From Plicaturopsis crispa FD-325 SS-3 (lineage: Eukaryota; Basidiomycota; Agaricomycetes; Amylocorticiales; Amylocorticiaceae): DNA of 64,000 nucleotides. The stretch spans positions 2,391,697-2,455,696 of the forward strand of contig KN832556.1 in the NCBI GenBank assembly GCA_000827205.1, given 5' to 3'. Position 1 is the stretch's first letter. The number at the start of each line of letters is the position of its first letter. A program made the translations under genes and the position numbers. Positions 30,774-64,000 of this stretch are shown one piece after another. A model generated the notes under the pieces. It had not been told where the DNA came from. It saw only the letters and a program-made list of their open reading frames with translations, and searched no databases.

Positions 30774-31023
30774 GGCAGACGTTTTGTGCTGAAGCGACGA
30801 TGGTAACGACGCGCGCACAGTGAGAGTACAGGTACAGACGATTTCAGCCTCAGGGGCCAAATATACGAAGATTATCTTGCCTCCGCAACTCAGAGTCAAA
30901 CGTGTTCACAACAAAACATACGAATTGGAACAAGAAATATTCATTGGTACGGGGCTATGATATAGGTAAATGGTAATCCACGGAAAGTTAGTACAGAAAA
31001 CGAGGAGAAAACACATCCATCCC

Positions 31024-32505
31024 TCAAGCCGTTGCAGCAATCGGCGTAGGCATCGCCGCAGCAATCGGCACGACATCCTCCAGCGCCGATCCAACTGCAT
31101 CACCGCTCTTCAGCCCGAGCTGCAGCTTGTGCGCCCTGCACTCAATCAGGAAGTCCGTGAACATCTGTACTCGTGGTCAGTGACTGATTCGATTGTCCTC
31201 AAGTACGAAACAAAACGTACCTCGATGGTGTCGAGCGGCCCGCCAGCGCTTTCAGGGTGGAACTGGACGCCCCATACTTTCTTTCCAGAGTCGGCAGTGG
31301 ACTTGATGCCCTCTACGGAAGAGTCGTTGCAGTTGATGAAGAACGGTTCCCAGCCTTGTGGGAACGGGTCCTGCAGCTTCAAAGCGTACTGGTGGTTTTG
31401 ACTACACCGCTCGTAAGTAACCGAACACAGTGTGTCAGAGGATGTGTACGAACCTGGTAACATACACGCGCCCCGCCTTGATAGACCCCGCAGACGCCAA
31501 CGCCAGCACGGGCTGATTGTGCCCGCGGTTTCCAAACCGCATGCGGTACGCATCCAGCCCCGCCGCCATGCCGATGATCTGGTGGCCCATGCATATCCCA
31601 AAGACGGGCTTGTCCCACTCCGCTAGGGTTCGGCGCAGCTTCAGTGCCGCATCCATACAGTGCGCGGGATCACCTGGCCCGTTGGACAGGAAGAGCCCGT
31701 CGTACTGGTCCCGGATCGTGTTGAAATCGAAGTTCCATGGTAGTACGGTAACTGCTGCACCACGGCGGACGAGTGCGCGAAGGATGTTCGCCTTGGCGCC
31801 GAAGTCGATGACGGCGATTTTGACGTCGCCAGTGGGGTTGAGGTCGTAAGGAGCGGTGGTGGACACCTGATCGACGAGGTTCTCCGTCGTGGGGTCCCAG
31901 TACTCCTGCTCTCCCGGCGCGGGGAGGGAGGCATCAGCGCCTATGGCAAGCCGTCCGAGGGTGGTACCCTGATCCCGGAGGAGGCGGGTGACGGCGCGGG
32001 TATCGATGCCGGTGATAGCAGGGATATTATGCCGCGTGCACCACGACGAGAGCGACTCGACGGCGCTATGGTGTGAATAGCGTTCTGCGACATCGCCCAC
32101 CACAACTGCTGAGCATTGAATGCCCTGGGATTCGAGGAGGACACCCACGTCTTGCGAGTCCACTGCGGTTTTGTTCAAGGGAACACCGTAGTTGCCAATG
32201 AGAGGCGTAGTGAAGACGAGAATTTGACCACGGTAGGAGGGGTCGGTCATGGACTCTGTGTCTAAAGAATCGCGTAACGGTTAAGCTCGGACGGCATATC
32301 GCCTGTAAAAAATCCACTGACATGAAGTGATCGACGTCGAAAAGACAGTCTCTCCGAAGATGCTCTTGGGTGCACCGAAGGACCGACCAGCAAAGGACTG
32401 GCCGGATTTGAGATGCAAAACTGCAGGAGTTGTGAAAGCGGTGGATGCATGTGTAGCTAGACCTCGCGAGAGGCGAGGAATAGAGAAGAATTGGCGAGAC
32501 AACAT
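31024..32505 (-). CDS. CPA1: Arginine-specific carbamoyl-phosphate synthase, small (glutaminase) subunit
   Basis: The gene runs on the minus strand from the ATG at 32505 to the stop at 31024, with introns at the family positions. It releases ammonia from glutamine for carbamoyl phosphate used in arginine synthesis. A Ser/Arg-rich N-terminus (MLSRQFFSIPRLSRGL) looks like a mitochondrial presequence. The N-terminal CPS domain has GETVFSTSITSYTESMTDP, spliced across intron 1, and VFTTPLIGNYGVP. The class I glutaminase domain shows LSNGPGDP, the nucleophile Cys in FGICMGHQ, and the His-Glu pair in GVQFHPE. A short Ala-rich tail follows. An upstream ORF of the arginine attenuator type precedes it (32522-32587), so translational control by arginine is likely. 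Confidence 0.94.
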
Positions 32506-32521
32506 GGTGTGTTTTGATAAC

Positions 32522-32587
32522 CTAGAGACTAAGGAGAGAAAAGACAAGGTCGCTGAGATAGTCGTCGCGAGTGTTCAGAGTGTACAT
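32522..32587 (-). promoter_or_regulatory. Upstream ORF resembling the arginine attenuator peptide (AAP)
   Basis: In the 5-prime leader of CPA1, an ATG at 32587 opens a 21-codon frame that ends with TAG at 32522-32524, only 16 nt before the CPA1 start codon. The peptide contains DYLSD, the core of the fungal arginine attenuator peptide, preceded by Thr-Arg-Asp and followed by hydrophobic Leu-Val-Phe. In Neurospora arg-2 and yeast CPA1 this nascent peptide stalls the ribosome at its stop codon when arginine is abundant. The Trp usually found shortly after the core is Phe here. Position, length, gene and core motif all agree, so the assignment is strong. Arginine-dependent stalling itself is inferred. 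Confidence 0.82.
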
Positions 32588-33209
32588 GAACTGAGCGTAA
32601 GACTCAGAGGAATGGAGATGGTCAACGAGAGGTAAAAAAACTGGCCGCGTTTTTTACTTGGTGCCTGTTCTCAAGCTCACGTGGCTCGAACTCTGACTCG
32701 CGTCAGTTTCGCGTCTTCCGACGTTTGACTTGCAGTTTGCGCGTCCTTGCGCTACATACGTACGGGATACAAGGAAATATCTAGGAAGTCACTTTGAAGA
32801 GTTCTGGGGAATGTCTGGATATCATTGGTCCGACGACGGCCAACGCTGGCGCGCTCATGACCGCCGCCGTGCATTCAGCGGTACGATCGCGATCGCCGCA
32901 GGTAGTGATCGTGCAGTGCACTGTTGGGAGCACAGCGGCCTACTGCAACAGGAGAGGTCCACAGACAGACAGACACGCAGCGTGGGTGCGACGCGATGTT
33001 TTACGTGGGCCACCTCGTCAAGCTCAGGTCCCGTGGGCCGACCGCATATGTGCAGACGACAACTGATCATGCATTATGGCTACATTACACATCCGTGAAA
33101 CACAACAATCGTCTGTAAATTTGACACGGTCAATACGAATGGAAAATGGATTGCAATGAGCCGCAAGACTTACACTCGTGCACGCGAAGAGCTAACCGCG
33201 AGGGCCGCC
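32588..33209. other. Intergenic region upstream of CPA1
   Basis: About 620 bp between the CPA1 leader and the end of the FIT2-like gene. No ORF on either strand resembles a protein. A palindromic CGATCGCGATCG lies at about 32884. Confidence 0.45.
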
Positions 33210-34103
33210 TTAGGTTTGATGGACTTTCACAGGCGCTGACGCTGGCACTGACGGCTTCAGAATCGGTATTTGCGTGATTGCGAAACCAACAAGACCAAAA
33301 ACTGCGGGGAATGTACCATTAGACACGGTAACATTACGTCGTTCAAAGCGAGACTTACGGTACCCTGTAATCTTCTCTGAGGGCGTGTGGAAGTACACAC
33401 TTGTAGTGTAAGTCGCGAGCAGCCAGACTGCAATCAATATAGCATTGAATCCGACGGCGTATTTATGCCATGACGGCCAGCGTTGCGCGCGGAACGACAC
33501 GCTGAGTTGATCGGCGAGGAAGAGGATAGACATCGTGAGGAGAAAGATATGTCCCGAGACGTCGTGTCCGCGCCGCAGCCTGGGTCTACCGCCGTTCCAT
33601 TCGCCGTTGGGAATGAGCATCTCGAGAGGGGCCGTGAAGAGACTGGGATGTGTCGAGGGAGAGACGTGACTCTTCGTGAAGCAGTATTCGTTCGGTAGGG
33701 TGAGGACCTCTCCCGAAGGCAGCGGAAGAACACATTCCCCTCCAGAGGCAGCTATCAGCCGCTCCAAGACAGCTGGCCCGAAAAACCAGCTCGTGAAGAC
33801 GAGCCATACTGCCGTCTCCGCCGCCCACTGCACGACCCGTCTCTTCGTCCGCGCGTGCGGTGCGCTGGTCCACCACAGAGCCAGGAACGCAGCAGACGTC
33901 CACGCCCATGCGCGCTTTATGAATACGACGTTGAGAAGGTTGGATTTGCTGGCGAAGTAGTCGGAATGCTGCAGTGGGTGCGGAAGGTGGGTTAGGAGGG
34001 GGTTTGAAGTGTCGAGATACGTGTCGTATACGACTGAGTACACCGTTCCGAAGGCTATGACGCCTGTAACTGTAGCTAACGCTAGCAGTCGTGCATTTGA
34101 CAT
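33210..34103 (-). CDS. FIT2/Scs3-like fat storage-inducing transmembrane protein
   Basis: Two minus-strand exons (34103-33359, 33301-33210) encode 278 residues. The protein is an ER membrane protein with about six hydrophobic helices. Family hallmarks are the first catalytic His in RRGHDVSGHIFLL, the second in YFHTPSEKITGY, and LFGLVGFAIT once the 57-bp intron is removed. FIT proteins are lipid diphosphate phosphatase-like enzymes that maintain ER lipids and lipid-droplet budding (yeast Scs3 and Yft2). A luminal loop with two Cys (ECVLP, EYCFTK) is present. Retaining the intron would add 19 residues in frame but break the conserved C-terminal helix, so splicing is preferred. It is divergent from the mannosidase gene. 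Confidence 0.87.
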   Translation of the reverse strand: MSNARLLALATVTGVIAFGTVYSVVYDTYLDTSNPLLTHLPHPLQHSDYFASKSNLLNVVFIKRAWAWTSAAFLALWWTSAPHARTKRRVVQWAAETAVWLVFTSWFFGPAVLERLIAASGGECVLPLPSGEVLTLPNEYCFTKSHVSPSTHPSLFTAPLEMLIPNGEWNGGRPRLRRGHDVSGHIFLLTMSILFLADQLSVSFRAQRWPSWHKYAVGFNAILIAVWLLATYTTSVYFHTPSEKITGYRKSRFERRNVTVSNGTFPAVFGLVGFAITQIPILKPSVPASAPVKVHQT

Positions 34104-53587: not shown

Positions 53588-55005
53588 CTAGAGAAGACCG
53601 CACTCGCGCAGGTGCAATTGCAGGAGGATATCCTGGATAGCGCTCAACACGACTGTAGATTGACGTTAGCAATGCTTCGAGGCAAGAAGTGGAGGTCCTT
53701 ACATTTGATCTGCTGCGTATCCGTGGCACACGTGTAGTGCGCGTATATTTGCTTGGTCGCAGCGCTTTGGTTGAGCGAGACGAACCTGTGCAGCAAGTAA
53801 TCGCAGGCAGCATCGTAGTTATCTCCGCCTTGATAATCTGGGAAGTAATCCCCGAGTGGTGAGCGGGGCAACTTCTCGGCGAAAAGATCGATCTTGTTGA
53901 GGAAAAGAATCTATGATTCGATGGGTGAGTGATGCAAATGTACACTGGGAAGGAATATTACGAACGATTGAGGTCTTGACAAACCACCGCGAGTTGCAGA
54001 TCGAGTCAAACAACGTCAGCGCTTCTTGCATTCGGTTCTAAAAACAGGTGAGAGGTCTGCGCAGGAACGGGGTCAAATGAGCCACTTACGACGCTTTCAT
54101 CCTCGTACAACATCTGGTCATACTCGCTCAAACTGACTAGGAACACCAGTGCTGTGACATTCTCGAAGCAGTGTATCCATTTTTTCCGCTCGCTCCGCTG
54201 GCCACCGACATCGAACAGCTTGTATGTGAGCTCCCCGACCTTGAAGGTTGTCTCGGTGATACCCGTAGTCTTCACACGAGAACGGAGGATATCCTGGTCG
54301 GTCGGAAGGTAGCCGGGGGATGCCATCCGGTCCATAGAGTTGAAGTAGTAGACGGCACTGTCGTTCAGCTGGAACTCCCGGGACCGGCGGACGGCCTCTT
54401 TGACGCCCGGGTCGCGCCAGAGTCCTCGAACAGCATCAACGACATCTCGAGGAAGAATCTCCGCTTCTATTTGCATAGGGAGGGATAGAACAGCAGCACG
54501 GCGTGCATCATTCTGGGGAGAGAGCGAGATGTCGAGTTGGGGCATAGCCTCGAGGATGGCGCTACGGTGAACGTTCATTATGCAAGTTGGGACGACGAAG
54601 AGGTAAGACATACCGCATAGACTGAATAGTGTTCGAGAAGATGATTTCTTTGTACGAGTCTCGCTCTTGGTCGTTGTACCCGCCATGGTGAATGAGCTTC
54701 ATTTGCTTCAGAACCGTCGACTATAGATGGCGTCGAACATCAGGAGGTTGCATCTAAGTTAGCGTTGGCAACACGCACCTTTCCAGACTCTCCAGCTCCG
54801 AGTAGAAGCATCTTGATTTCGTTTTTGGCCATCATACGGTCCCGCTTGAGCTGGTTCTCGATCTCATCGTTGCCTACACAAACGATTCGTCAGCAACTGA
54901 AGACGACGAGCGCCAACGACGGTTCGATGCCAGGCAACTACGAGAAGTCCTATACGCACGAGCTTTCGCATCGCTGTCGATCTCTGAGGACTGAACACAA
55001 CCCAT
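53588..55005 (-). CDS. Heterotrimeric G-protein alpha subunit, Gi-like
   Basis: The minus-strand gene runs from the ATG at 55005 to the stop at 53588 and encodes about 350 residues. The N-terminus MGCVQSSE has Gly2 and Cys3 for myristoylation and palmitoylation. GTPase motifs are all present: GAGESGKST (P-loop), the switch I Arg-Thr pair in [21 protein letters not shown] (switch II), FLNKIDLF and TCATDT. The C-terminus ends LRECGLL, with a Cys at position -4 as in Gi-class subunits (Neurospora GNA-1, yeast Gpa1-like). It acts at the plasma membrane downstream of seven-helix receptors, in fungi typically nutrient or pheromone sensing. Which basidiomycete subgroup it belongs to cannot be settled by eye. 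Confidence 0.94.
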
Positions 55006-56028
55006 TTCTGTGCAGTGGCGGCGGCGCTGGTGACGAGGCTGGCAGGTGAATAAGAGGGAGAAGGAGAAAGAGGGAAGAAAAGAGCGCAAGGATGAGAAAG
55101 CCTGCCGCTAGACTACGCAAGGGGACTCGCAGACGATAAGTCCAGAGAGGAGAAGGAAATAAGACAAGAACAAGGACGTTGTGTGTTCTGGTTCGTCGTT
55201 GTCTTTGCCGACGACTTGATGAGGAAGCACCGTGCTTATGTCAGCGTCGCCGGATATGTTTTTACCCTTTCATTTTACAACCGGAAATGATACACGTCTG
55301 GTCCCGATTCCACGACATGCGGCCCCCGCCTCAACCCAACAACATCGTTAGCGCCGCGAGCGCGCCCACTGCCCCGACTCTGCAGTCTCGCAGGCTGGTC
55401 TCAGCCTCGTTTCCAAATCCTCAGAGTGGGCATTACCGCCGGAGTGACGGCAAAAAACTCGTGGGAATTCTGGTTGGACCGTTTTTTGTTAAGTACGCAG
55501 TTCCAGTGGCAATTAACCATAAAGAACTCAAAACACTGGATGAACCAGGAGTATGCCAGGGGTGCATAGCATTGCACAACAATTCAGTGCTCTGTCCTAG
55601 CTGCAGGAAGAAAACTCAGACCGGTGGCTTGCACAGAATGACGTTACATGGTTTTTCGAGTGTCAGGGCCGGATGACGGAAGCAGGCAAGGATGGAAGCT
55701 AGTCGTGCGGCGAGGCTTATTTGGGGCTAAAGCAGGTGGTCCTGACGTTCAGAGAGAACAAGGGTGTGTTGATAGACAAGGAACTAGGTAGATATATGAG
55801 CTGTACTTGTACGAACAGAACGAGCATGCAGGCCAGACTAGTGTTCATCCCAACTGCGGCATCCAGCCCCTTGCCCTGCGTACACACGCAGGAGCGCCAC
55901 TCAGCATCACCTGGGACCTCATCTGCAGTACTGCACGCTTTCACACCGCCCCCTTGCGCAGCCACCTTGCGTGTCGATAGCAGCATGCCACCGCGCTACC
56001 CAATTCACGCCACCGACCCAGCAGCTCT
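55006..56028. other. Start of repeat-rich region, no recognised gene
   Basis: The ORF at 55179-55676 has two CxxC pairs near its end (CQGC, CPSC) but no known domain and no consistent start. It may be a repeat remnant. The sequence becomes C-rich and low in complexity from about 55,860. Confidence 0.4.
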
Positions 56029-56470
56029 GTAGCAGCACCGTGCGCGGTCACGCCACCTCTGTGCGCATCCACAGCAGCACGCCACTGTTCTGCCCGCTCG
56101 CGTCGCCACCTATCCCTCCATAGCAGCACCGTACACGTCCGCACGGGCACCTTACGCATTGGCAGCACGCCGTTGCACCACCCGCTTGCATTGCTGCCCA
56201 TCCCCTCCGTAGCAGCACCGCACGCGGTTACGCCGCCTCTTTGTGCATCCACAGCAGCATCCCGCTGGCTGCCCGCTCACGCCACCGCCCATCTCTGTAG
56301 CGGTGCCGTACTCGTCCGCACTGGCACCTTGCGCATCGGCAGCACACTGCTGCGCCACCCGCTTGCGTCGCTGCCCATCCCGTAGCAGTGCCGTATACGT
56401 CCGCTCAGCCACCTTGCCCATTGACAGCACACCGTTGTGCCACCCGCTTGTGCCACCACCCGGCACCACA
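56029..56470. repeat. Degenerate minisatellite, about 180-bp period
   Basis: GTAGCAGCACCG-type unit starts occur at 56029, 56209 and 56382 (the last as GTAGCAGTGCCG), giving periods of 180 and 173 bp. The units share CGCATCCACAGCAGCA, GTCCGCACNGGCACCTT and CACCCGCTTGC blocks. Each unit contains a half-unit of about 90 bp. The region reads as His/Pro/Ala/Ser-rich in several frames, so the ORFs over it are by-products of the repeat. Confidence 0.75.
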
Positions 56471-63700: not shown

Positions 63701-63734
63701 TTGACCTCAAATCAGGTAGGATTACCCGCTGAAC

Positions 63735-63767
<33 letters not shown>

Positions 63768-64000
63768 AACAAGGATTCCCCTAGTAGCTGCGAGTGAAGC
63801 GGGAAAAGCTCAAATTTAAAATCTGGCGGTCCTTGCGGCCGTCCGAGTTGTAATCTGGAGAAGCGCTATCCGCGCCGGACCGTGTACAAGTCTCTTGGAA
63901 AAGAGCATCATAGAGGGTGAGAATCCCGTCTTTGACACGGACTACCGGGGCTTTTGTGATGTGCTTTCTACGAGTCGAGTTGTTGGGAATGCAGCTCAAA
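63701..64000 (+). rRNA. 28S rRNA, 5-prime part (runs off the window)
   Basis: TTGACCTCAAATCAGGTAGG starts the large-subunit rRNA, followed by ACCCGCTGAACTTAAGC, ATCAATAAGCGGAGGA and the D1 region to the window edge. A few positions differ from the usual fungal sequence: GGATTACCC, TAGTAGCTGCG, and GTTGTTGGGAATGC, which has one T fewer than usual. The last could be a base-calling error or a sign of a degenerate copy. Confidence 0.95.

Follow-up and report, generated by a model that had tools for sequence, protein, structure and literature searches.

A Probable Arginine Attenuator uORF, with Phenylalanine in Place of Trp19, in the CPA1 Leader of Plicaturopsis crispa

Introduction

The arginine attenuator peptide (AAP) is among the few known eukaryotic nascent peptides that respond to a free amino acid by halting the ribosome. 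In the basidiomycete Plicaturopsis crispa FD-325 SS-3, a short ORF with an AAP-like core stands directly before CPA1, the gene for the small subunit of CPS, and carries Phe where the Neurospora crassa peptide (NcAAP) carries Trp19. This arrangement raises two questions: whether the ORF belongs to the AAP kind at all, and, if it does, whether a peptide of this form would still respond to arginine. Both were addressed by computational analysis of a 64,000-nucleotide stretch of contig KN832556.1 (hereafter, the window), with comparisons extended to further stretches of the same contig and to the 33.2-Mb genome.

Location and Reading of the uORF

On the minus strand of the window, positions 32587–32522 form an ATG-initiated ORF of 21 codons plus TAG that encodes the peptide MYTLNTRDDYLSDLVFSLLSL; the same interval read on the plus strand is LETKERKDKVAEIVVASVQSVH. 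The stop codon (32524–32522) is separated from the CPA1 ATG at 32505 by a spacer of 16 nt (32521–32506), and this reading agrees with the earlier note on this DNA, which, naming no strand, had described a 21-codon ORF containing DYLSD that ends 16 nt before the CPA1 start. Two ATGs are present within the 300 nt preceding the CPA1 ATG, namely that of the uORF, which is the closest ATG upstream of the intact gene, and one at 32757, which is followed directly by TAG. An in-frame N-terminal extension of the uORF was considered and rejected, as the upstream frame is open as far as a TAA and holds no additional ATG. The plus-strand reading of the interval lies within a 91-amino-acid ORF (32360–32635) that has no Pfam match at E ≤ 0.01, and was taken as antisense noise.

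The CPA1 Gene and Its Genomic Setting

A manually constructed gene model, based on splice signals and homology, describes an intact CPA1 of 437 amino acids on the minus strand, with four exons (exon 1, 32322–32505; exon 2, 31454–32261; exon 3, 31221–31401; exon 4 with the stop codon, 31024–31164) and introns of 60, 52, and 56 nt. The predicted protein scores 385 bits against TIGR01368, the model for the small subunit of glutamine-hydrolysing CPS (cut-off, 307), and inspection by eye indicates that it retains the motifs FGICMGHQ and QFHPES, which contain the catalytic Cys, His, and Glu. Its N-terminus, MLSRQFFSIPRLSRGLATHAST, encoded in exon 1, resembles a mitochondrial presequence by eye.

When the CPA1 protein was used as a query against its own genome, the matches were CPA1 itself and two stretches on contig C16, the site of a CAD-like gene in which small-chain and large-chain matches lie near each other. 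A second place with a match to the CPSase large chain was identified on contig C1, separate from the CAD-like gene. The presence of both loci makes it likely, judging from these similarities, that the genome encodes a dedicated arginine-pathway synthase, and the large-chain place on C1 would fit a dedicated CPA2. CPA1 was also compared with viral and genome contigs, which yielded 1 and 5 loci, respectively, at 34–41% identity, the latter five being titled bacterial or archaeal.

Several other features of the window were noted in passing. The next same-strand ORF upstream of CPA1 (33210–34103, minus strand) encodes a FIT (fat storage-inducing transmembrane) protein (PF10261, E = 1.4e-38). A partial gene for a G-protein alpha subunit (PF00503, E = 1.2e-58) lies at 54006–54686 on the minus strand, and a diverged tandem repeat with a period of 177, overlapping one with a period of 85 bases, occupies 56025–56450. 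The start of a 28S rRNA gene (Rfam RF02543) is located at 63702–64000 on the plus strand, preceded, from about 63487, by an ITS2-like stretch and a short 5.8S tail recognized by eye; the remainder of the 5.8S is absent there, and thus the rDNA unit at the end of the contig is broken or junctional. The DUF6533 family, typical of Agaricomycetes, has 47 matches in the genome and none in 14 control genomes, all of them prokaryotic, which, like the 28S sequence, would suit an agaricomycete.

Alignment with the Neurospora Peptide

The NcAAP sequence used as reference agrees at all 24 residues with PDB entry 2xl1, which bears the name arginine attenuator peptide. In an ungapped alignment anchored at the stop codon, the uORF peptide is identical to NcAAP at T9, D12, Y13, L14, S15, D16, and L22, and the distance from the core to the stop is eight residues in both peptides. 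The DYLSD core (NcAAP positions 12–16) is encoded at 32549–32563 and the Thr corresponding to Thr9 at 32570–32572, both on the minus strand. The stop-anchored BLOSUM62 score is 32 over 16 residues, and among 17 ungapped offsets the in-register one is the best, with a score of 27 over all 21 residues; the next best offset scores 3. The N-terminal part of the peptide is unrelated to that of NcAAP, as the earlier note had held in calling it the peptide's own.

Substitutions at Position 19 and Elsewhere

The peptide differs from NcAAP in length, with 21 rather than 24 residues, and in having Arg, Asp, Leu, and Phe in place of Ser10, Gln11, His17, and Trp19. The last of these is encoded by TTT at 32540–32542 on the minus strand, which differs from the Trp codon TGG by two changes, so that a single sequencing error would not explain the Phe. 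It had been noted earlier that Phe replaces Trp in the residue after the core; the exchange itself stands, and Phe does occupy the place of Trp19, but it is the third residue after DYLSD, the adjacent one being Leu.

Trp19 is highly conserved and reportedly required in NcAAP. In an alanine scan of that peptide, Asp12, Tyr13, and Trp19 reportedly were among the required residues, and the exchange of Trp19 for Ala is said to kill the peptide, whereas we know of no test of Phe at this position. Since the required Trp19 is replaced here, our confidence in an arginine response is moderate rather than high, arginine-dependent stalling being less certain than for the Neurospora and yeast peptides, and the ORF is called an AAP variant rather than a plain member of the group. 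From its sequence, the Phe19 peptide may work with another aromatic residue, may work weakly, or may be decaying.

The alternative that survives best among those considered is that the uORF descends from an AAP and has lost Trp19 and His17, and with them arginine sensing, so that ordinary translation of the uORF would slow CPA1 constitutively and no more than mildly. The exchange of His17 for Leu together with that of Trp19, which is needed in NcAAP, speaks for such decay. However, the five core residues, Thr9, the frame, the start, and the stop are all intact, which is unlike the outcome of long neglect, and Phe is a conservative aromatic exchange; decay is therefore regarded as rather unlikely. 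A variant that works like an AAP, and not a plain member, is the most likely reading of the uORF. The more specific proposal that it represents a natural attenuator lacking Trp19, that is, a lineage of AAPs in which Phe, at a tunnel position thought to need Trp, serves in arginine sensing, is put forward tentatively, as a possibility that we would not favor over its negation. If it were true, either an aromatic ring rather than tryptophan as such would be required, or Leu17 and the acidic Asp11 would compensate.

Presence of the uORF in the Mature mRNA

The uORF would be absent from the mature mRNA if transcription started downstream of 32587 or if a leader intron removed it. Donor-like sites are found at 32763, 32759, and 32680 within the 300 nt before CPA1, and the one at 32680 (GTGAGC) could in principle be paired with acceptor-like YAG sequences at 32553, 32529, and 32522. 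However, introns spliced in this way would measure 128, 152, or 159 nt, against 60, 52, and 56 nt in CPA1, and no CTNAY branch-like site occurs between 32601 and the CPA1 ATG, whereas one can be seen by eye within the final 30 nt of each of the three CPA1 introns (52–60 nt). A 90-nt intron spanning 32680–32591 would leave the uORF whole. Removal by a leader intron is thus unlikely. A transcription start downstream of 32587 would imply a leader shorter than 82 nt and would leave the likeness to AAP unexplained. Taken together, absence of the uORF from the mature mRNA is considered very improbable.

Controls for Chance Likeness

The expected frequency of such a likeness was estimated from real and simulated ORFs. 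When all ATG ORFs of 16–40 amino acids in 264 kb of the same contig (the whole window and 20 further 10-kb stretches) were ranked by stop-anchored score against NcAAP, the uORF ranked first of 2764; the next ORF scored 22, and the mean was −14.9 (sd, 7.9). In a simulation of 120,000 leaders of 300 nt generated by a first-order Markov model, one half of them with the composition of the leader and the other half with that of the window, none of the 96,932 uORFs of matching size scored at least 32 (the best scored 30), and none contained DYLSD. When 510,556 codons in all six frames were examined, this motif was found once, in the uORF itself, and a search of the 33.2-Mb genome with the 21-residue peptide yielded a single match at E ≤ 10, with no second AAP-like peptide.

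The five core residues supply 27 of the 32 score units, and the remaining match is thin (5 of 32). In a looser comparison with 368,435 unanchored 11-mers, the uORF peptide scored 30 and was exceeded by one unrelated peptide, at 31. Queries with the uORF peptide gave no match in PDB by phmmer and none in a Pfam scan. Although these three observations speak for a chance ORF of coincidental likeness, this explanation is untenable once the anchoring is considered jointly with the motif and the gene, with no simulated uORF as good, the first rank among real ORFs, and the sole DYLSD standing before CPA1, and we assign it only a negligible probability. The sequence comparisons thus indicate that the ORF is an uORF of the AAP type, with chance likeness effectively excluded. 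The claim of the earlier note that the gene, place, size, and core motif are those of an arginine attenuator uORF is borne out by the alignment, the ranking, the simulation, and the TIGR01368 match.

Proposed Mechanism

We consider that the ORF is probably the arginine attenuator uORF of CPA1 in this fungus. The steps proposed below, from retention in the mRNA and translation to the sensing of arginine, stalling, and mRNA decay, are modeled on Neurospora and yeast. By the general rule of a purine at −3, which is not a species-specific measurement, the uORF start (UUC AUG U, T at −3) is weak and that of CPA1 (ACC AUG U, A at −3) is stronger, so that ribosomes could leak past the uORF. Part of the scanning ribosomes reaching the weak AUG would initiate there and produce the 21-residue peptide, while the remainder would continue to the CPA1 AUG, which lies 82 nt further on. 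At high arginine, the nascent peptide, still within the exit tunnel, would bring the ribosome to a halt at TAG, the stop codon of the uORF (32522–32524, minus strand), the part active in stalling being mainly T-x-x-DYLSD and the aromatic residue at position 19. The stalled ribosome would keep others from leaking past to CPA1 and may make the mRNA a target of nonsense-mediated decay. With arginine in short supply, termination at the uORF would be fast and CPA1 would be made.

Folding of the leader RNA is not unusual (z = −0.53), and no Rfam match at E ≤ 1 was detected in 30900–33300. An RNA sensor in the leader was rejected on these grounds, and the peptide is therefore the likeliest sensor. 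A TGACTC sequence at 32694–32699 was considered as a Gcn4-type site and set aside as uninformative, since this hexamer occurs 29 times in the window, fewer than the 38 expected.

Comparison with Known Attenuators

The arrangement resembles that of Neurospora crassa arg-2, in which the AAP uORF likewise precedes the gene for the CPS small subunit; the arg-2 product is mitochondrial, and the target described here has a mitochondrial-looking N-terminus. In Saccharomyces cerevisiae, the uORF stands before the same gene, and the two peptides share a T-x-x-D-Y-[LI] core, with Ile in yeast and Leu here. The yeast peptide has Trp at the place of the present Phe, and yeast Cpa1 is cytosolic, in contrast to the presequence-like N-terminus of the P. 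crispa protein. The yeast core reads T-C-Q-[D]-Y-I in the D13N primer printed in PMC7969011, so that a Thr precedes the core there too, and the same source describes a weak start context for the yeast uORF, as found here. It also reports that high arginine prolongs the dwelling of ribosomes in the uORF and reduces translation of the main ORF, and that changing the core Asp (D13) to Asn abolishes arginine regulation (PMC7969011); the equivalent Asp is retained in the uORF peptide.

In PMC7049704, the AAP uORF is described as conserved among CPA1 orthologues, and Hood 2007 is cited there for AAP repression in a Neurospora cell-free system. The same paper reports that the CPA1 homologue of Cryptococcus neoformans and C. 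deneoformans, basidiomycetes like P. crispa, has an AAP uORF that is strongly occupied by ribosomes, that the main ORF is repressed, and that CND01050 mRNA is 5-fold higher in a upf1 mutant (PMC7049704). The AAP kind and its presence in Basidiomycota are thus already in print, and the kind is not new as such. The earlier suggestion of a divergent basidiomycete form is consequently upheld in part: the divergence at Phe19 and Leu17 is real, but a basidiomycete AAP had itself been reported (PMC7049704). A literature search on the core letters and residue 19 returned no text on Phe19 within its coverage, outside which key comparative papers lie, and the Phe19 form is accordingly claimed only as a variant not traced in the literature searched.

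Significance

The uORF of P. crispa would extend the anatomy of this switch to another filamentous fungus and leaves the known mechanism unchanged. As a naturally occurring exchange at a residue regarded as essential, Phe19 would offer a ready-made test of what the ribosomal tunnel and arginine recognize in the peptide.
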